64,000 nucleotides of DNA from a virus (IMGVR_UViG_3300015171_000001:93281-157280); one strand, 5' to 3'. Shown: positions 13,320-60,520, counted from the first letter of the stretch. Numbers and translations: made by a program. The notes: a model not told the origin generated them from the letters alone.

Positions 13320-13329
13320 TATATTTATA
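13320..13329 (+). promoter_or_regulatory. AT-rich promoter-like motif before NTase-kinase operon
   Basis: TATATTTATA followed 9 nt later by the ATG at 13339; the same decamer as before the fibre gene. It would serve the five-gene operon 13339-17707. Confidence 0.45.
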
Positions 13330-13338
13330 ACATACGAT

Positions 13339-14619
13339 ATGATCAGAGAAAATACATTTAAAATATATGGGAATAATCTAAATCCAAAAATTTGGAAATC
13401 TGATGGGACTATAAAAACAGAAATTAGAGAAAAATTATTAGAAATTGCTGATAATTTTTATAAAGATTTAGAATTCAATTTTCCTTATTCAGATATTTTA
13501 TTATTAGGATCTAATGCAAATTATGATTGGAATGAATTTTCAGACATAGATTTGCATATTTTAATTGATAGTAAAAAACTAGGTATTAATGATAAATATA
13601 TACAACCATTCTTGGATGGATTGAAAGATAAATGGAATATTAAACACAAAATAACTTTACACGATATTCCTGTCGAAATGTATATTCAAAATATTGATGA
13701 TAAAAATGCTGCTCTTGGAATATTTTCTTTATTGAATAATAAATGGATTAAATTTCCAAAAAAACAAAAAATTTCATTTAATAAAGAAAAAGTAAAAGAA
13801 GATTTTAAAAATATAACTGGGATCATCAATCATATTATAAATAATAATGAATTAGAAAAAGGAAAAAAATTAGAAGATAAAATTTGGGAAATTAGAAAAC
13901 AAGGATTGGGAAATAGAGGAGAATTTTCTGATGGAAATATTTTATTTAAATTATTAAGAAGTTCTGGTTATATTAAAAAACTTATAGATTTTACAAATAA
14001 GTCATATGATGAGAAAGAATCTTTAAAAGAAAAAATTATTGGAGAAGGACTTAATGATCCACATATATTTAAAGCTATATTTATGGCAGGAATTCCTGGT
14101 GCCGGAAAAACAGAAGTATCAAAATATATTAAAGGTGGAACTGGATTGAAAGTAGTAAATATTGATATTTTTAATGAATGGTATTTGAAAAATAAAAAAG
14201 CAATTGATTTTGATAAATTTGATCAATTAATTAATTCTCAATTAAGTACATATATTCAAGGACATTTAGGACTTATTATAGATAAAACTTCCAGTGATTT
14301 TGATATGACATTAAAAACCAAAGAATCTCTTGAATTATTTGGATATGATACCGCTATGATATTTGTCACTGCTGATTTAGAAATAGCAAAACAAAGAGTA
14401 ATTAATAGACAAAAAGAAAATGGGAGAGAGGTAGATACTGATTATATTGATAAAGTCCACACAGCTTTGCAAAAAAGTATAGAGAAGTATACAAAAATTT
14501 TTAAAAATAATTTATTTATTATAGATAATACAGAAAATATTGATTTTGGTAGATTAAATAAACAAGTTAATAAATTTATTAATTCCCCTGTTAAAAATCC
14601 TCTGAGCAAAATTAATTAA
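13339..14619 (+). CDS. Nucleotidyltransferase fused to P-loop (zeta-toxin-like) kinase
   Basis: 426 residues, two domains. The N-terminal ~120 residues carry the minimal nucleotidyltransferase signature: G57-S58 followed by NYDWNEFSDIDLHILID with metal-binding D69 and D71, the GS...DxD pattern of the Pol-beta superfamily. The C-terminal half has a Walker A (GIPGAGKT at 251-258). Downstream are NIDIFNEW, IIDKTSSDFD, and FVTADLEIAKQRVINRQ, as in zeta-toxin or polynucleotide-kinase-like small-molecule kinases. The transferred group and target are unknown; RNA or protein nucleotidylation or phosphorylation is possible. It is the first gene of a tight operon with four ADP-ribosyltransferase-like paralogues (next start 2 nt after its stop). 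That makes a cluster of presumptive target-modifying enzymes. Confidence 0.75.
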   Translation: MIRENTFKIYGNNLNPKIWKSDGTIKTEIREKLLEIADNFYKDLEFNFPYSDILLLGSNANYDWNEFSDIDLHILIDSKKLGINDKYIQPFLDGLKDKWNIKHKITLHDIPVEMYIQNIDDKNAALGIFSLLNNKWIKFPKKQKISFNKEKVKEDFKNITGIINHIINNNELEKGKKLEDKIWEIRKQGLGNRGEFSDGNILFKLLRSSGYIKKLIDFTNKSYDEKESLKEKIIGEGLNDPHIFKAIFMAGIPGAGKTEVSKYIKGGTGLKVVNIDIFNEWYLKNKKAIDFDKFDQLINSQLSTYIQGHLGLIIDKTSSDFDMTLKTKESLELFGYDTAMIFVTADLEIAKQRVINRQKENGREVDTDYIDKVHTALQKSIEKYTKIFKNNLFIIDNTENIDFGRLNKQVNKFINSPVKNPLSKIN

Positions 14620-14620
14620 T

Positions 14621-15385
14621 ATGAAATTAAAAACACTTTTAACCGAAATTGAGTCTGAACAAGATCAAATATCAATTCTAAAAAAAGAATGCCCATTTGC
14701 TATTGAAATATATAAAAAATTTAATTATTTGTTTTTTAGAGGATCAAAAAATGTTTCTGTATTTGAAAAAATAAAACCTCTAGTTAATAGATTATCAAGA
14801 GATTCTTCTAATGTTGCTAATTTATTATTTGATAATAATAAAGACAATTCTTCCTATCAAAAAAGATCGAGTTCTATTATTTTTTCTGGAATTAAAAGAG
14901 TTGCTGAAATTTATGGGAATGTACATGTGTTTTTTCCAAAAGGAAATGCAAAAATAACATTTTCTAAAAGTGATTTTATATATACAAAATTAATAAATGT
15001 TCCTATGATATTAGATACATTTGGAAATGAGACTTTTAATTTTTTGTTTGATATTATAGCACCAGAACAAACAAAAGCAACTAGTTTTGAACAACTTGTT
15101 AAATATTTTAAAATAATAGACACGATGGACAAAAAACATTTATCCGAAATGACTTTCTCCAATACTAAATTTCAAGAATTTGTGTATAAGCCGTTTATAA
15201 AAAATAATGTTAAAAATTCATATGATTATTTTTCTAGTTTTGTTTCTAATAAAAATTTGAATTTCGTGGGGAATATATTAATGTCTGAATTGAATAATAT
15301 AAAACATCCCGAATTGTGGACACAAGAAGAAGGATATATGATAGATTTTAAACATTTTTATGATAATTTGAGAAATAAATTATGA
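14621..15385 (+). CDS. ADP-ribosyltransferase-like protein, paralogue 1 of 4
   Basis: 254 residues. Shares with the three following genes an FFRG motif (here LFFRG at ~37-41, candidate NAD-binding Arg), NVANLLFDNN, then KRSSSIIFS (candidate Ser-Thr-Ser-like strand), AEIYGNVHVFFPKGN, and a C-terminal WTQEEGYMID (candidate catalytic Glu strand). The R / S / E order fits R-S-E class mono-ADP-ribosyltransferases such as T4 Alt/ModA, but the match is by motif only. The N-terminus MKLKTLLTE contains an LxE site like the T4 capsid-targeting leaders removed by gp21 protease, so it may be an injected internal protein. Its TGA overlaps the next ATG (ATGA). Confidence 0.55.
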   Translation: MKLKTLLTEIESEQDQISILKKECPFAIEIYKKFNYLFFRGSKNVSVFEKIKPLVNRLSRDSSNVANLLFDNNKDNSSYQKRSSSIIFSGIKRVAEIYGNVHVFFPKGNAKITFSKSDFIYTKLINVPMILDTFGNETFNFLFDIIAPEQTKATSFEQLVKYFKIIDTMDKKHLSEMTFSNTKFQEFVYKPFIKNNVKNSYDYFSSFVSNKNLNFVGNILMSELNNIKHPELWTQEEGYMIDFKHFYDNLRNKL

Positions 15386-16167
15386 TTAAGTTAAAAAATA
15401 TACTCAGAGAAATTCAAGAAGTAGATCAACATGTTGCCTTGTTACAAAGGGATTGTGGATTAGCAATTCAAAAAATTGTAAATGAACATTTGGTATTTTA
15501 TAGAGGAGAAAAGGGTTCTGAATTTTTTATAGAAAGGACCGCAAGACCTAGAGTTAGTTTGGATGGGCCCAATATAGCCAATTTATTATTTGATAACAAT
15601 CCCGATAATGTACATTATACAAAAAGAGGGAAGTGTTTGATTTTTAGTTCTAACCAAGAGACTGCTAAACAATTTGGTCATTTACATGTTTTTATTCCAA
15701 AAGGAAATCCTTCTATATCATATATAAAAAGAGATTTTGTTGACTGTTATTTAATAAATCCTCCTCTAACAATATCCTATTTGGATAATATTAGCTATAT
15801 TTTTCGTAAAATACTTGATACTCCTGTAAAAATAAGGACAGTTGATTTCATAAAGAATGCTTGTAAATTTATAGATGATCATCCATTATTTAATGAAGAA
15901 GAAGAGGCTCTATCAATGTTAAAACGTTTGTATATGACCGAGGTGCATTTTACTGAGTGGATACTTCCTGTTTTATTGGGAGACGTAAAAAATTCTTATG
16001 AATATTTTTTGGAAAGCGCGTCTTATGAAAATATTTCAGACACAAATGGAAATAAAAATTTATCAGAATTTCGCAAAACTGATATATTTGACGAATTTTG
16101 GTCAGATTGTTCTGGTTATCTTATAAACAACGATTATTTTGTAAATTCTATTTTTCCAAAATTATGA
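15382..16167 (+). CDS. ADP-ribosyltransferase-like protein, paralogue 2 of 4
   Basis: 261 residues. Same motif order as its neighbours: LVFYRGEKG, then RPRVSLDG, NIANLLFDNN, KRGKCLIFSS, AKQFGHLHVFIPKGNPSIS, and a C-terminal WSDCSGYLIN. The position that is Glu in paralogues 1, 3 and 4 (WTQE/WTE) is Asp here, so activity may differ or be lost. N-terminus MIKLKNILREI again has an LxE. Start ATG overlaps the previous stop and its own stop overlaps the next start, implying coupled translation. The ADP-ribosyltransferase assignment is an inference; an unknown fold is the alternative. Confidence 0.55.
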   Translation: MIKLKNILREIQEVDQHVALLQRDCGLAIQKIVNEHLVFYRGEKGSEFFIERTARPRVSLDGPNIANLLFDNNPDNVHYTKRGKCLIFSSNQETAKQFGHLHVFIPKGNPSISYIKRDFVDCYLINPPLTISYLDNISYIFRKILDTPVKIRTVDFIKNACKFIDDHPLFNEEEEALSMLKRLYMTEVHFTEWILPVLLGDVKNSYEYFLESASYENISDTNGNKNLSEFRKTDIFDEFWSDCSGYLINNDYFVNSIFPKL

Positions 16168-16937
16168 AATTAATGTCCATTTTAAATAATATTAGATTAG
16201 TGGAATCTTATCAGCATATTGATATAAAGGATAAGTCAAATCATGATAATTTTATAAATGAATTTCATTCAAAATGTCAAGTGGCCATAAACAAATATAA
16301 AGAAGGTGTTAGATTTTATAGAGGATTTCCGGCTCCAGAAAAAGATATTGTATATTATATAGATCCCACAAATTATACGAGAAAAGCATCAGAAACGCAT
16401 AATTATATAAATTTATTATTTGATAATAATGCAGAATTGGGTCATGTTGGTAAAAGAAGCAAATCTGTAATAACTTGTACAGATTTTGGACAATCAGATA
16501 GATATGGAAAATCATACATTATTTTTCCAATAGGAGATCCATATATGTCATATGGAAAATCTCCAGACTTTTGGTATAACTTTGAGAACACAATTGGCCA
16601 CGTCGATGTAGTAAATTCCGAAATTAAGAGTATTTTAACCGACGCGCATCAAGATACAAATGATTCGGATATTAATATATTAAAAAAATCATTGAGAAAA
16701 GCACAAGAAATTTTGAAATATAGAGGGGAAGATGAAGAAGTTCAGTATTCTACAGAAGATTATTTTACCGAAGATAAAGATATAGTTGAGAATTTTTTTG
16801 ATAGATTAAATCCACAAAAAAATGGAATAGAATCAAAAAAATTATCGACAATGGGAAGAATGACTAGAAAAGAAATTTGGACAGAAGTACCGTGTTATGC
16901 AATAGATTATTATAAAATATATCAAATATTACCATGA
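16164..16937 (+). CDS. ADP-ribosyltransferase-like protein, paralogue 3 of 4
   Basis: 257 residues from the ATG at 16164. The frame is open further upstream to 16098, but that lies inside the previous gene. The ATGA overlap and the shared N-terminus MKLMSILNNI identify the true start. Motifs: VRFYRGF (~50), YTRKASE, YINLLFDNN, KRSKSVITCT, DRYGKSYIIFPIGDPYMSYG, and WTEVPCYAIDYY at the C-terminus with a possible catalytic Glu. It has a longer N-terminal extension than the others and an acidic insertion (~185-220). Confidence 0.55.
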   Translation: MKLMSILNNIRLVESYQHIDIKDKSNHDNFINEFHSKCQVAINKYKEGVRFYRGFPAPEKDIVYYIDPTNYTRKASETHNYINLLFDNNAELGHVGKRSKSVITCTDFGQSDRYGKSYIIFPIGDPYMSYGKSPDFWYNFENTIGHVDVVNSEIKSILTDAHQDTNDSDINILKKSLRKAQEILKYRGEDEEVQYSTEDYFTEDKDIVENFFDRLNPQKNGIESKKLSTMGRMTRKEIWTEVPCYAIDYYKIYQILP

Positions 16938-17707
16938 AACTAAAATCTATATTAAAAGAAGTTATATCAAAACAAGAAGTTGAACAACAAAGTTCTTTAG
17001 CAATTCAAAAGGCTAGGGAAGGAGTTTTATTATTTCGTGGGGACAAATCAGAAGAAAAATTTTTCTATAGAGATCCATCAACTAGAGTTAGAAAATCATT
17101 GTCTGGTTATAATATTGTAAATTTATTATTTGATAATAATCCACATTTAGAACATGCTCAAAAAAGAAGTAAGTCTATTATATTTTCAAGACAACAGGAC
17201 ATTGCTAATTATTATGGAAATAAATACATTGTTCTTCCAACACAAGATCCTTATATTTCTTTTATTAATGAAGACTTTGTTTATATAAAACCAAAAATAA
17301 GTGGAAGCACTATGAATAATAGTGCATTTGAATTACATTTATTATCTATAGCAAATATTTGTGGACATGATAATAGATTGTTTGATACATTTGATGAGGT
17401 TAGAGCATGTATTCAAAGTATTGATAAAAATATAAAACCAATGAAATTTGATCGCACACAGAATTATTCAATACTTTGGAATTTTTGTTTAAAAAATAAA
17501 GGACATTTATTGCAATCTATTTTTGAAGTATTTTCTCCAAAAGGACTTGGGGTAACAACAAAAAAATTATCTCAATTAACAAAGTCTGATAATTTCTTAG
17601 AAGGTTGGACTGAACAATCATGTTGGTTTATTAATAATGTTGAATTAAAAAATGAGTTTGGGGTAAAATTTAAAGATAATAAAAAAACCTCGTCAAAATA
17701 TGTTTGA
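16934..17707 (+). CDS. ADP-ribosyltransferase-like protein, paralogue 4 of 4
   Basis: 257 residues, last of the tandem array. Motifs: GVLLFRGDKS (~35), TRVRKSLSG, NIVNLLFDNN, KRSKSIIFSR, ANYYGNKYIVLP, DPYISF, and C-terminal WTEQSCWFIN. N-terminus MKLKSILKEVISK carries the LxE leader-like motif. The ATG overlaps the stop of paralogue 3 (ATGA). Immediately after its stop comes a strong sigma70-type promoter, so the operon probably ends here. Confidence 0.55.
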   Translation: MKLKSILKEVISKQEVEQQSSLAIQKAREGVLLFRGDKSEEKFFYRDPSTRVRKSLSGYNIVNLLFDNNPHLEHAQKRSKSIIFSRQQDIANYYGNKYIVLPTQDPYISFINEDFVYIKPKISGSTMNNSAFELHLLSIANICGHDNRLFDTFDEVRACIQSIDKNIKPMKFDRTQNYSILWNFCLKNKGHLLQSIFEVFSPKGLGVTTKKLSQLTKSDNFLEGWTEQSCWFINNVELKNEFGVKFKDNKKTSSKYV

Positions 17708-17737: not shown

Positions 17738-17902
17738 ATGAAATTTTATACGGGAATAGGTAGTAGAAAAACGCCTATTGATATTAAGACGTTAATTATT
17801 AATATTACTAAAACACTTGCCAATAATTCTTATATTTTAAGAAGTGGAGGTGCCGATGGAGCAAATTTGTTTTTTGAAGAAACTAGAAAAAAGTTTATGT
17901 GA
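17738..17902 (+). pseudogene. Truncated SLOG/DprA-like fragment (54 aa)
   Basis: Encodes MKFYTGIGSRKTPIDI, then LANNSYILRSGGADGANLFF, then a stop after EETRKKFM. The GIGSR-TP and LRSGGADGA motifs are the nucleotide-binding start of the Rossmann-like SLOG family (DprA/LOG-like) common in phages, whose members are several times longer. This copy stops mid-domain. It still has a near-perfect promoter and its TGA overlaps the GTG start of the next gene, so it may now act as a short leader cistron. I see no continuation in the other frames. Confidence 0.65.
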
Positions 17903-44011: not shown

Positions 44012-45334
44012 ATGCAACAAAATCCAATAGACAGTTTATCAAAGTTCGGAATATCATTTCAACAAAAATGTATTTCTAGTTTATTATCCGACAAAACATT
44101 TATTGAACAAATAATAGATATTTTAGATCCAACATATTTTGATAATGATGCACATCAATGGATTATTACGGAGATCAAAAGTTATTTTAATAATTATAAA
44201 CAATTAATTACCTTGGACGTATTTAAAGTTAGAATTGATACTTTGAGCGGGGAAGAATTAAAAAGATCTATTATTGATCAATTAAAATTAATTTATCAAA
44301 AGATTAAAGATCAAGACATCATTTATATTAAAGAACAATTTTTAAATTTCTGCAAAAATCAAAAATTAAAAACTGCAATTTGTGATTCTGTTGATTTATT
44401 GAAAATTGGCCAATATGAAAAAATTAAACAATTGGTTGATGACGCACTAAAAGCAGGAATGGAACAAAATGTTGGTCATGATTATTTGAACGATATTGAT
44501 GAAAGAATGACTAATATTATTAGACAAACAGTTTCTACTAATTGGGAAGTTATTGATGAATTAATGGATGGTGGATTAGGTTCTGGAGAATTGGGAGTTA
44601 TTGTTGCCCCTGCTGGGATTGGAAAAAGTTGGGGATTGGTTAAGTTAGGTGCGGAAGCAATGAAGTCTGGAAAGAATGTTGCTCATATTACACTTGAATT
44701 GAATGAAAATTATGTTGGCAGAAGATATGATTCTTGTTTTACTAGAATAGATTTTAAAGATATACCAAACGAAATTGGATTAGTAAAAGAGTCTTTAAAT
44801 AAAGTTACTGGAAAATTATTTATTAAAAAATATCCAATTAAATCAATTAGTGCAAATAGTATAAAAGCTTATGTTGAAAGATTGCGAATGTTAGGAACAA
44901 GAATAGATTTACTTGTGGTGGATTATGCAGATATTTTAAGGTCAATGTCTAGTGATAAAAATAGTAATTCTTATAGTGATGCCGGGAATATTTACGAAGA
45001 GTTAAGAACTGTTTTGGATGAATTGGGTATACCTGGGTGGACGGCGAGTCAAACAAATCGTTGCCTTTCTTTACAAACCATTGTGTATAAAGAAGTTACA
45101 AACGAATGTAAAATTTCGGAACTAAAAATAGGAGATAAAATATTAACAAACAATGGTTATAAAAAAGTCAGCAATATATTTCCAATAATAAAACAACCAG
45201 TTTATAGAATAAAATTAAAAAGTGGGAAATCAATAGATTGTTCTATAAACCACAAATTCCCCACAAGATATGGGAAGTTTTTAAGTATAGAACATGGATT
45301 ATCTGTTGGAGATAAATTATTTGTAAAAAAGTAG
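44012..45334 (+). CDS. 41: Replicative helicase gp41, N-extein plus N-half of split intein
   Basis: 440 residues. 1-350 are a DnaB-type helicase N-part: Walker A IVAPAGIGKSWGLVKLG (~197-213), then HITLELNENYVGRR, and LLVVDYADILRS (Walker B). Extein ends ASQTNR. Residues 351-440 (from 45062) are an intein N-fragment: catalytic Cys1 in CLSLQTIVYK (block A), GDKILTNNGYKKVSNIFP, and SGKSIDCSINHKFPT (block B with TxxH-like His), ending KLFVKK and a TAG stop. Partner is the 45799 gene; trans-splicing would give a ~455-aa helicase. Position and style match the known naturally split gp41 inteins of metagenomic phages. Confidence 0.92.
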   Translation: MQQNPIDSLSKFGISFQQKCISSLLSDKTFIEQIIDILDPTYFDNDAHQWIITEIKSYFNNYKQLITLDVFKVRIDTLSGEELKRSIIDQLKLIYQKIKDQDIIYIKEQFLNFCKNQKLKTAICDSVDLLKIGQYEKIKQLVDDALKAGMEQNVGHDYLNDIDERMTNIIRQTVSTNWEVIDELMDGGLGSGELGVIVAPAGIGKSWGLVKLGAEAMKSGKNVAHITLELNENYVGRRYDSCFTRIDFKDIPNEIGLVKESLNKVTGKLFIKKYPIKSISANSIKAYVERLRMLGTRIDLLVVDYADILRSMSSDKNSNSYSDAGNIYEELRTVLDELGIPGWTASQTNRCLSLQTIVYKEVTNECKISELKIGDKILTNNGYKKVSNIFPIIKQPVYRIKLKSGKSIDCSINHKFPTRYGKFLSIEHGLSVGDKLFVKK

Positions 45335-45359
45335 TTTTTATCTGTTTCCATCCATATAA

Positions 45360-45806
45360 ATATGGACGGCAACATATTTCAAAACTATAGAACAATTATT
45401 AAATCAAAAACCATTTTTACCATTTAAAAATTTAGTTAATGCTCATACACTAACACAAATAGATATTCTTATTAAAAAATATACCAAATATTTTTTAATA
45501 AATTTGAGAAAAGAAATGGTGGTAAATTTAATAAAATATAATGTAGATGGAGATTGGCTTTTTAGATTGGAAGAAAGTAAAAAATATAGAAAAGATGGAT
45601 TTTCTTTGGAATCTTGTAAATTAAGATATGGAGAAATAATCGGAACAAAATTATATGAAGATAGAAGAAAATCCATAATAACAAAAAGAGAAAATTACAC
45701 AGATATTACATGGAAAGAACTGTGTAATAAAAAAATAAGTAATTTAGGATTGAATGGATATATTAATAAATATGGAAAAGAATTAGGAGAAAAAAATTAT
45801 GCGTGA
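45360..45806 (+). pseudogene. Endonuclease-like ORF inside split intein locus
   Basis: An open frame from 45360 with no good start (ATA TGG ACG..., TTG at 45504). It encodes a helical N-part (KNLVNAHTLTQIDILIKKYT) and then DGFSLESCKLRYGEIIGTKL, YEDRRKSIITKRENYTDITW, NGYINKYGKELGEKNYA. The repeated KYG/RYG-E-xG-kxY motif is found in phage homing-endonuclease proteins. An ATG in another frame at 45362 gives only 22 codons, so the 5' part is probably broken. It ends 8 nt inside the intein C-half gene and supplies its ribosome-binding site. It is located exactly where free-standing endonucleases sit in other fractured split-intein genes. Confidence 0.6.
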
Positions 45807-46257
45807 ACATGGATTAAATAATAAGGATTTTATATTAGATGAAATTGAGAGTATAGAATTAATGGGAGATCAAGAAACAATAGATATTACTGTAGAAGAT
45901 ACACATATGTTTTTTGCAAATGATATATATACTCACAATTCTGGTTCTGAACAAGATATTGTTCAGGCAGGAAGTATTGCAGATTCTTATAGAAAAATTA
46001 TGACAGCAGATTTTGTATTGTCTCTTTCTAGAAAGATAAATGATAAAGAAAATAGCACTGCTAGGTTTCATGTTATCAAAAATAGATTTGGTTCGGATGG
46101 AATGACATTTCCAGCAATTATGAATACTTCTAATGGTGATATCAGATTATTTAAGTCTGATTCAGAAGAAGGAATGAATATTCAATCAAAAATGAACGAT
46201 GTAGAAAATTCAGTAAAAAAGATGTTAAAAGATAAATGGAACAGTAGAGAAGAGTGA
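45799..46257 (+). CDS. 41: Split-intein C-half plus C-extein of helicase gp41
   Basis: 152 residues. Residues 1-47 are the intein C-fragment: DEIESIELMGDQETIDITVE, then DTHMFFANDIYTHN with block F and terminal His46-Asn47 (block G), followed by Ser+1 (SGSEQDIVQAG). The C-extein of 105 residues carries the end of the DnaB core (RKIMTADFVLSLSRK, FHVIKNRFGSDGMTFP). A Shine-Dalgarno AGGAG lies 9 nt upstream, inside the endonuclease-like ORF. Together with 44012-45334 it reconstitutes gp41 by protein trans-splicing. Confidence 0.92.
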   Translation: MREHGLNNKDFILDEIESIELMGDQETIDITVEDTHMFFANDIYTHNSGSEQDIVQAGSIADSYRKIMTADFVLSLSRKINDKENSTARFHVIKNRFGSDGMTFPAIMNTSNGDIRLFKSDSEEGMNIQSKMNDVENSVKKMLKDKWNSREE

Positions 46258-57967: not shown

Positions 57968-59638
57968 ATGTATAAATCTATTTTTTATGATAGACGATCT
58001 CAATTTATTCATATTAACGATGATAAAAAGGGATGGGTTAGATTTCCATATAAAAAATATGCATATAGGTTATGTTCCACTGGGACATATAGAAGTATGT
58101 TTGGTCAGAAATTAGAAAAGATAACAAAAGTAGATCCTAATGAAGAAGGATTATTTGAAAGCGATGTTCCGGTAGAAACTCGAATTTTAGTTGATGGGTA
58201 TTATGAAAGCAATGAATCATCTAAAGGTCATAGTATAATTTATTTTGATATTGAGACAGAAGTTGATAAAGGACTTCCAAATCCACAAAACGCATTACAA
58301 CGAATAACAGCTATATCGTTATATTCGAATAATCTTAAAAAATATTATGCGTTGATTTTGGATGAACATAATAAGTTATCTGAGTTTGAATATCCAAATG
58401 TTGAAATTCTTAGATTTGATAATGAAGAAGATTTGTTATTAGAATTTTTGAAAATTTATAAAATGTGCAAACCAGATATTTTAACTGGGTGGAACAGCGA
58501 TTTTTTTGATATTCCATTTATTTATAATAGATTGGGAAGATTGTTTGGTGACAATAAGGCTAAGGAATTATCTCCATTGGGTATTTGTTATTATAATGAT
58601 TTTAAAAAGAGGATGGTTATTGGGGGAGTTTCTTGTTTAGATTATTTAATTGTGTATAAGAAATTTTCTGGAGAACCTGCACCAAATTACAGATTAGACA
58701 CAATTGCAAAAAAAGTTTTGGGAAGAGGGAAAATACAATATGATGGAAATTTAAATGATCTTTTAGAAAATGATCTAAAGAAATTTTTAGAATATAGCAT
58801 TAATGATACTGAATTATTAGTTGAGATGGATGCGAAGTTGAGTTTTATTCAATTATCAATAGATATTTGTCATTCGGCTCATGTACAATATGAAGATTTT
58901 GGAACATCTTCTAAGATAATGGAAGGAGTTTTATTATGTTTGTTGAAAAATAAAGGATTGGTTGCTCCTAATAAACCTGCACAAAAAGAGGATTATGATT
59001 ATGAAGAGGATGAAGAAAAATTTGCTGGTGCGTATGTTAAAGAACCAATTCCTGGTTTATATGAATGGGTTATTAATGCCGATTTAAATTCTCTATATCC
59101 AAATACTATTAGAACATTAAATATTTCGCCAGAAACAAAAAAAGGAAAGGTTTTAAATTGGAAAGAAATAATAGATGTTAATGAAATTGGGAATTTAAAA
59201 TCTATAAAAGATGAAAGTGAAATTCAATTGCAAATAATTAATACAAAAGAGGTTGTTAAATTAACAAAAGAAAAGTTTCTAAAATTAATAAAATATAAAA
59301 ACTTTTCTGTCAGTGGCAATGGCATTTTATATGATCAAAGTAAAGATGGTTTGTTAAAACAAATTATTAATACTTGGTATTCTTTGAGAAAAGAATATAA
59401 GGCAAAAATGAAAAATGCTATCGAAAATAAAAATAAAGAAGAAGAATCTTTTTGGTCTAGAAGAGAACAGGTTCAAAAGATTTTGCTTAACTCACTTTAT
59501 GGTGTACTTGGACTAAAGTCAGGAAGATTATTTGATTTAGATAATGCTGAAGCAGTAACATTGTCAGCACAATTAATTATAAAAAATAGTTCTGTATTAG
59601 CAAATAATTATTTTGGTAAAATTAAAAGAAATTTGTAA
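57968..59638 (+). CDS. 43A: DNA polymerase (T4 gp43-like, family B), N-terminal part
   Basis: 556 residues. Exo I YFDIETEV (D94/E96), Exo II WNSDFFDIPF (N176, D181), Exo III YSINDTEL (Y276, D280). Pol motif A ADLNSLYP (D372). Motif B KILLNSLYGV (K504). It stops at TAA just after a helix ILANNYFGKIKRNL-like end. This is exactly the linker that in RB69-type enzymes leads into motif C, which opens the next gene. It therefore contains exonuclease, fingers and half of the palm but not the motif C aspartates, and cannot polymerise alone. Confidence 0.92.
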   Translation: MYKSIFYDRRSQFIHINDDKKGWVRFPYKKYAYRLCSTGTYRSMFGQKLEKITKVDPNEEGLFESDVPVETRILVDGYYESNESSKGHSIIYFDIETEVDKGLPNPQNALQRITAISLYSNNLKKYYALILDEHNKLSEFEYPNVEILRFDNEEDLLLEFLKIYKMCKPDILTGWNSDFFDIPFIYNRLGRLFGDNKAKELSPLGICYYNDFKKRMVIGGVSCLDYLIVYKKFSGEPAPNYRLDTIAKKVLGRGKIQYDGNLNDLLENDLKKFLEYSINDTELLVEMDAKLSFIQLSIDICHSAHVQYEDFGTSSKIMEGVLLCLLKNKGLVAPNKPAQKEDYDYEEDEEKFAGAYVKEPIPGLYEWVINADLNSLYPNTIRTLNISPETKKGKVLNWKEIIDVNEIGNLKSIKDESEIQLQIINTKEVVKLTKEKFLKLIKYKNFSVSGNGILYDQSKDGLLKQIINTWYSLRKEYKAKMKNAIENKNKEEESFWSRREQVQKILLNSLYGVLGLKSGRLFDLDNAEAVTLSAQLIIKNSSVLANNYFGKIKRNL

Positions 59639-60520
59639 ATGAATGATGAAAATATAATATATTGTGATACAGATTCTTTGTATTTATCTACTAATCAATT
59701 ACTTACAGAAGAAAATAAAAAAGACAGAGAATTTTGTAAAAAATACACAGCAAAGTTTTGTCAAGATGTCTCGGAGTATATTAATAATTCATATTTTGAG
59801 TTGACGACAGATATTTTTAATACCAAAGAACATTTTTTAAATATTGAAGCAGATGCCTGTTCGGAAACAGTATTGTGGACTGGAAAAAAGAAATATGCCA
59901 TGAATTTATTTTGTGAATTGAGTAAAAATAAATGGTATGATTCTCCAAAATTAAAGGTTATTGGATTAGATACAAAAAGATCTTCTTTTCCAAAATTATT
60001 TAAGGAATTGATGGAAAAAATTATTTCTAAAATCTTAAATAAAGAAGATAATAATGCAGTTAATATATTAATTGAAGAATATAAAAAAATAGTAAAAACT
60101 TGTGATTATGTTGATTTGTCTAAGAATACTGCGGTCAAGGAGATATCAAAATATGAACAGAGGGATAGAACACCATTTAATACAAAATTCATCAAGAAGA
60201 CCCCTTCTCACGTAAAAGCTGCCATATCTTATAATGACTTCATAAAGTTTAAGAATCTAACAAAAACTTGTGAGTTAATTACCGATGGAGAAAAAATCAA
60301 ATGTCTTTATTTAAAAGACAATCCTTATAAATTAGAAGTTCTCGCCTTTAGGAATGACGGGAAAGATCCAAAAGAATTAATTGAATATATTGAAAAATAT
60401 ATTGATAGAAATAAAACATATGCTTCTGAGATTGAAAATAAAATTGAGTCTTTTTATAATGCAATGAAATGGAAGTTGAAATCTGATAATGAAGATAAAT
60501 TTAATGAATTCTTTTCATAA
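59639..60520 (+). CDS. 43B: DNA polymerase (T4 gp43-like, family B), C-terminal part
   Basis: 293 residues. The ATG directly follows the TAA of the previous gene in the same frame. Residues 7-15 IIYCDTDSLY are motif C with catalytic D10 and D12. Then LWTGKKKYAMN (KKKY motif) and a thumb domain. With the N-part it totals ~849 residues, about the length of T4-like polymerases, so nothing is missing except continuity. Likely a two-subunit enzyme made by stop-start reinitiation, or occasional readthrough. Confidence 0.92.
   Translation: MNDENIIYCDTDSLYLSTNQLLTEENKKDREFCKKYTAKFCQDVSEYINNSYFELTTDIFNTKEHFLNIEADACSETVLWTGKKKYAMNLFCELSKNKWYDSPKLKVIGLDTKRSSFPKLFKELMEKIISKILNKEDNNAVNILIEEYKKIVKTCDYVDLSKNTAVKEISKYEQRDRTPFNTKFIKKTPSHVKAAISYNDFIKFKNLTKTCELITDGEKIKCLYLKDNPYKLEVLAFRNDGKDPKELIEYIEKYIDRNKTYASEIENKIESFYNAMKWKLKSDNEDKFNEFFS

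Follow-up and report, generated by a model that had tools for sequence, protein, structure and literature searches.

Four tandem genes in the genome of a phage probably encode proteins that are carried in the phage head, injected into the host and active there as enzymes, possibly as divergent ADP-ribosyltransferases (ARTs) of the R-S-E type. The genes lie in the window, the 64,000-nucleotide stretch analysed here, which forms the right-hand part of an IMG/VR virus record of 157,280 bases. They are paralogous and belong to a family found in tandem arrays, begin with a leader of the T4 internal-protein (IP) type, occur in a phage with a prohead protease, follow a promoter motif and a kinase partner, and share a set of conserved residues.

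Four coupled paralogues and their family

Paralogues 1 to 4 occupy positions 14621-15385 (254 aa), 15382-16167 (261 aa), 16164-16937 (257 aa, with its ATG at 16164) and 16934-17707 (257 aa), all on the plus strand. An earlier note on this DNA had described them as adjacent and ATGA-coupled, and reading of the open reading frames (ORFs) together with blastp of all pairs confirms this: an ATGA overlap is present at each junction, and six of six pairs match at 24.6-32.3% identity (E values from 2e-10 to 3e-38). Among the shared motifs listed in that note, FRG, NLLFDNN and KRSxS align in register across the four copies, whereas the glutamate conserved in the family is not that of WTE. No further copies were found in the 157,280-base record. 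A Pfam search with the paralogues gave nothing credible, and a PHROGs search led to families 12810 and 11975, both of unknown function. Right after the array, a 54-aa ORF at 17738-17901 (IGSRKTP...LRSGGADGAN) resembles the start of a SLOG-type nucleotide- or ADP-ribose-binding domain truncated by a stop, and has no Pfam match.

The family extends to Agrobacterium phage Atu_ph07, Salicola phage SCTP-2, the giant-phage records LR756508 and LR756502 and about 30 IMG/VR contigs. A pattern scan of IMG/VR returned 35 loci, and an iterated HMM search gathered 138 ORFs, or about 116 without duplicate loci. Adjacent co-directional family pairs number 53, of which 39 overlap, and a phage carries between 1 and 12 family domains. 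The Atu_ph07 array consists of 11 genes (AUZ94865-AUZ94875) with 12 domains, including one protein with two domains, one fused to a zeta-type kinase and one whose N-terminal part was read by eye as a GNAT acetyltransferase. PHROGs 11975, 12810 and 15932 are the family itself (E values down to 6.6e-110), with a second, shorter subfamily in 11975 and 15932. The A1 pattern scan of IMG/VR gave 139 pattern matches and none was confirmed, and the A5 scan returned nothing beyond Atu_ph07 itself. Because no relatives turned up when 85k prokaryote genomes were scanned with a single pattern, the family appears to be restricted to phages, within the sensitivity of that pattern. Family domains fused to other modules were seen at L042:14821-16152, L027:10952-11983 and L006:3936-5021; by eye, these modules are repeats at the C-terminus and, at the N-terminus, a ParB-like region and a GNAT-like domain.

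The operon partner of the four genes, at 13339-14619 on the plus strand, joins a pol-beta-type nucleotidyltransferase domain to a zeta-toxin/PNK-like P-loop kinase (Pfam Zeta_toxin, 5.9e-16; NTP_transf_2, 3.6e-4). At nine non-redundant loci, the window included, the family has a zeta/PNK-like kinase gene next to it or fused to it, with the fusion in Atu_ph07 found in AUZ94865; many family loci have no adjoining kinase. Beside the Atu_ph07 array, L006:1391-3188 encodes two proteins, one with a nucleotidyltransferase/ligase-like KLDGS motif and the other nucleotidyltransferase-like, a pair that echoes the nucleotidyltransferase-kinase partner in the window.

The sequence TATTTATA, a putative phage late-promoter element, stands at 13322-13329 on the plus strand, 9 bp ahead of the gene that opens the operon. 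In the 157-kb record, 19 copies lie no more than 45 bp upstream of a plus-strand start, where 2.0 would be expected by area; for its reverse complement the figures are one copy against 1.3. Other copies precede the genes for tail tube gp19, a gp25-like baseplate protein, a sheath-like protein and the S77 prohead protease. The T4 late promoter TATAAATA shows no enrichment upstream of genes (1 against 1.3 expected), and TATTTATA, the enriched element, was chosen after that search and is therefore post hoc, its enrichment being strong nonetheless; it may serve as a late-type promoter of this phage. Copies in the window stand at 2597, 4298, 13322, 20318, 21402, 24271, 26621, 33197 and 50560, often 3-9 bp ahead of an ATG, so near the start codon that some mRNAs could have almost no leader.

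Elsewhere in the window, a split ORF at 44012-46257 has an intein-like C-terminal remnant (HMFFANDIYT) behind a helicase-like gene, two abutting ORFs at 57968-60520 are apparently one DNA polymerase in two parts, and 1723-2451 matches Pfam DUF7487, of unknown function, at 9.2e-17.

A leader of the head-targeting type

The N-terminus of copy 1, MKLKTLLTE (14621-14647, plus strand as for all four), is of the capsid-targeting-sequence (CTS) type and ranks first among 199 phage ORFs by a leader matrix built from the leaders of 77 relatives, with T4 and the window excluded. Copy 4, with MKLKSILKE (16934-16960), ranks second, and copy 2, with MIKLKNILRE (15382-15411), ranks fourth and has hydrophobic residues at 4, 7 and 8 and Glu at 10 like T4 IPIII. 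In copy 3, direct reading of MKLMSILNNIRLVE (16164-16205) shows the hydrophobic residues kept and a later LVE, with Asn at residue 9 in place of the usual Glu, and this leader falls outside the top 40 of the 199. The L-x-E noted earlier in all four copies is thus present (LTE at residues 7-9, LRE at 8-10, LVE at 12-14 and LKE at 7-9 in copies 1 to 4), but not at its usual position in copy 3; CTS features are found in copies 1, 2 and 4 and are degenerate in copy 3. Across the family, [LI]xE occurs within residues 4-14 in 89 of 110 distinct N-termini, and a stricter leader regex matches 59 of 116 family ORFs against 41 of 502 other ORFs (p = 7e-24).

Applied to 244 T4 ORF starts, the same matrix places IPIII first, IPII second, the gp22 scaffold fourth and Alt twelfth; the IPII and IPIII leaders are identical, so the top two amount to one independent match. 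The T4 leader sequence, by direct reading, is MKTYQEFIAEA, and in IPI an ITE lies well downstream of the N-terminus, comparable to the late LVE of copy 3. Targeting by IPIII depends on residues 4 and 7 of its leader, and processing on residues 8 and 10 (PMC9026906). Copy 2 reproduces these determinants position for position, and copies 1 and 4 reproduce them in a leader one residue shorter.

The leader is also carried by 31 of 448 other ORFs inside or near arrays, and those with Pfam matches above cut-offs are zeta-type kinases, a C39-type peptidase and an amidoligase. Unrelated leader-tagged proteins of this kind lie at L038:8684-9403, L048:1813-2529, L014:5521-6252, L026:5695-6270, L019:2010-3089 and L038:14661-15299; besides the enzymes just named, one of these six is an HGTS..GI protein that appears ART/PARP-like by eye and has no Pfam match.

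A prohead protease of the S77 family is encoded in the same phage (PF03420 at G000:74638-76200, with 47.9 and 33.5 bits against a cut-off of 27 bits), and 9 of the 13 contigs that carry the family encode one too. In the phage studied here, the 559-aa protease ORF (G000:74605-76281, outside the window) is split by an intein-like insert, in frame and about 370 aa long, which starts at ...CVASGSLIMTYEGW and ends at ...FWSGN|S (loci L057, L076 and L077). A similarly split S77 match was seen in a 576-aa ORF in the record of L038 (G005).

In Atu_ph07, the array corresponds to gp53-gp63 and lies within CDS 31-76, as checked against the gene numbering of PMC6102473 on gp2, gp4, gp5 and gp70. In virions, 29 of the 46 products of CDS 31-76 were detected, a count for the block and not for each array protein (PMC6102473). 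If detections were random within this block, 6.9 of the 11 array products would be expected in virions, and the probability of none would be 9e-7 when genes are treated as independent. The virion-rich block offers indirect evidence for packaging of the array.

Taken together, the cross-scan of T4, the S77 protease, the leader on relatives as well as on unrelated enzymes, and the promoter motif make a capsid-targeting-type leader on the family well supported, as the earlier note had proposed. Its suggestion of an expanded set of injected proteins draws support from the same tests, from which we infer packaging, cleavage and injection. The products would be made late, alongside virion proteins, and the N-terminal M[KR]LxxILxE leader would target them into the prohead core, like the leader of T4 IPIII. 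The S77 protease would then cut after the Glu of L-x-E, and the mature protein of about 245 aa would exit the head with the DNA into a new host.

Conserved residues and candidate functions

Residue conservation was taken from a family alignment of 90-117 sequences, numbered by copy 4. Overall identity in the family is about 20%, against 96-98% at five charged residues: R35 of FRG at the end of strand 1 (residues 34-37; codon 17036-17038, 96%), R53 (17090-17092, 97%), R78 of KRS (17165-17167, 97%), D114 (17273-17275, 96%) and E223 (17600-17602, 98%), which starts strand 5 (223-226) and stands two residues before a Trp (E-x-W). Position 85, at the end of strand 2 (17186-17188; all codons on the plus strand), is Ser or Thr in 79% of members and Cys in copy 3, at a place where R-S-E ARTs have a motif of the Ser-Thr-Ser type, and P102 (96%) and G95 (95%) are further conserved. 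The Glu of WTE (E227 in copy 4) was rejected as the catalytic residue, being conserved in 13 of 90 sequences only.

AlphaFold models of copy 4 (pLDDT 84.8, pTM 0.83) and of a short member (pLDDT 86.0, pTM 0.82) run from the FRG strand through a helix, the S/T-ended strand, a helix, two strands and a helical insert to the strand started by E223 and a last strand. This predicted order of strands and helices fits the R-S-E ART core. Arginine- and asparagine-specific ARTs have a Glu or Gln two residues before the catalytic Glu; this [EQ]xE is absent from the family, in which position 221 is mostly D, N, G or K, and H, F or R in the window copies.

Foldseek found no PDB match to either model at E <= 1e-3. 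Against the viral library BFVD, three ARTs are among the first named, non-family matches, all weak (E 0.18, 0.81 and 0.86). With hhalign, only YRG aligned to an ART alignment of the ModA/ModB/Alt type, at a probability of 2%, and sequence searches of Pfam and the PDB with A2, A3, A7 and A9 gave nothing coherent. A PDB match of A7 at 2e-4 (chain sc-apCC-6-SLLA) was discarded, as it covers the helical insert only. The best Pfam match, to the ADP-ribosyltransferase DRAT (E 0.0025), pairs profile positions 145-201 with residues 26-82, apparently out of register, and was thus not used as evidence.

The ART identity put forward in the earlier note is therefore partly supported: the conserved R, S/T and E residues and the predicted strand order are consistent with it, whereas significant Pfam, PDB and profile matches were not found. 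The structure prediction suggested there as a check divides in the same way, with a strand order that fits R-S-E and no significant fold match in the PDB. In view of the weak viral fold matches, the YRG-only profile alignment and the missing [EQ]xE, ART chemistry is only a lead, and ADP-ribosyl transfer is given slightly less than an even chance. The mature domain is probably an enzyme with an arginine-rich active site of R35, R53, R78, D114 and E223 together with S/T85, which would modify host or defence molecules, most plausibly by NAD-dependent ADP-ribosyl transfer on a very divergent R-S-E-type fold.

The strongest alternative, possible though clearly less probable than the preferred reading, retains packaging and injection and assigns the domain another chemistry, in which the conserved R, D and E residues bind a polyphosphate or nucleic-acid end and act with the kinase and nucleotidyltransferase in nucleotide- or RNA-end chemistry. 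Three invariant arginines exceed what an R-S-E enzyme needs, a significant ART fold match is lacking, and the recurrent kinase, with the nucleotidyltransferase domain in the window, would suit such a role; on the other side, strand and motif order match the R-S-E ARTs, there are weak viral fold matches to ARTs, and many loci have no kinase beside the family.

T4 Ip1-3 are leader-tagged, injected proteins, each of which blocks a different GmrSD restriction enzyme (PMC12373910). This one-target-each arrangement offers the best analogy for the retention of several diverged copies by one phage, and under the preferred reading the tandem copies would diversify targets in the same manner. In an unlikely alternative, the family would be, like Ip1-3, head-packaged, non-enzymatic inhibitors of defence proteins whose copies track target variants. 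The leader type is that of Ip2 and Ip3, and divergence within arrays is fast; however, the strict family-wide conservation of the five charged residues is unusual for pure binders, and Ip1-3 have only the leader in common (PMC12373910).

A structural or scaffold-core role in the head without any action on the host is very improbable: the resemblance of the leader to that of gp22 and the late-type promoter would fit, but some phages have a single domain and others as many as 12, members are fused to enzymatic domains such as the kinase, and the conserved residues are pocket-like. There is equally little to recommend early cytoplasmic, unpackaged proteins with a chance CTS likeness or simply an N-terminal helix of the fold, since the leader, which AlphaFold does render as a short low-confidence helix, transfers as a matrix to the T4 IPs and recurs on unrelated neighbouring families, and the Atu_ph07 array lies in a cluster of virion-protein genes.

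Significance and comparison with known systems

Of the hundreds of uncharacterised genes in a jumbo phage, few can yet be assigned to the set whose products enter the host at the first moment of infection. The leader signature described here picks out the T4 internal proteins although T4 was not used to build it; it can thus be transferred between phages and gives a simple way to screen whole genomes for injected cargo. It marks the family, widespread and covering three PHROGs, and the tagged kinases, peptidase and amidoligases as candidates for a part in host take-over or counter-defence, and the ART question for the family is now directly testable at the bench. A bolder and rather doubtful extension is that the family is a phage-restricted enzyme superfamily of new or very divergent fold, in expanded arrays of head-packaged effectors, forming 'injection islands' with tagged kinases, peptidases and amidoligases that can be recognised by the leader alone in large T4-related phages.

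T4 Alt is a head protein that is cut and injected. With Alt, ModA and ModB, the R-S-E clade of T4, the family shares an Arg of the YRG type that ends strand 1, an S/T (in most members) followed by Ala at +6 and F/Y at +9 after strand 2, and a Glu with which a late strand begins. It differs in having no significant sequence, profile or fold similarity to them except YRG, no [EQ]xE, the extra invariant R53, R78 and D114, and a helical insert between strands 4 and 5. PHROGs 11975, 12810 and 15932, which hold the same family, are annotated as 'unknown function', with no leader or active-site reading attached.

A survey of viral NAD and ADP-ribose systems reports ARTs in more than 40% of jumbo phages, frequently packaged (PMC9503650). 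Its main text makes no mention of Atu_ph07 or SCTP-2, so the family may have gone unrecognised there. An injected effector repertoire of the same general kind is known from phage polyvalent proteins, which combine ART, GNAT and other injected domains (PMC5512222; PMC9503650). There a single giant polypeptide contains the parts, whereas here most of them are encoded by genes of their own, each product having its own head-targeting leader.

The closest parallel in leader design is with T4 IPI, IPII and IPIII, which likewise have a leader of about 9-10 residues with hydrophobic residues at E-6 and E-3, L/I at E-2 and the Glu itself, a gp21/S77-type protease in the same phage and variable gene sets. 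In contrast, the mature domains here are unrelated to IPs and belong to one large family of paralogues, which is marked by invariant charged residues and forms arrays that reach 12 domains. Head cargo of the T4 type is familiar, and what would be added here is an expanded, conserved and probably catalytic family of it.
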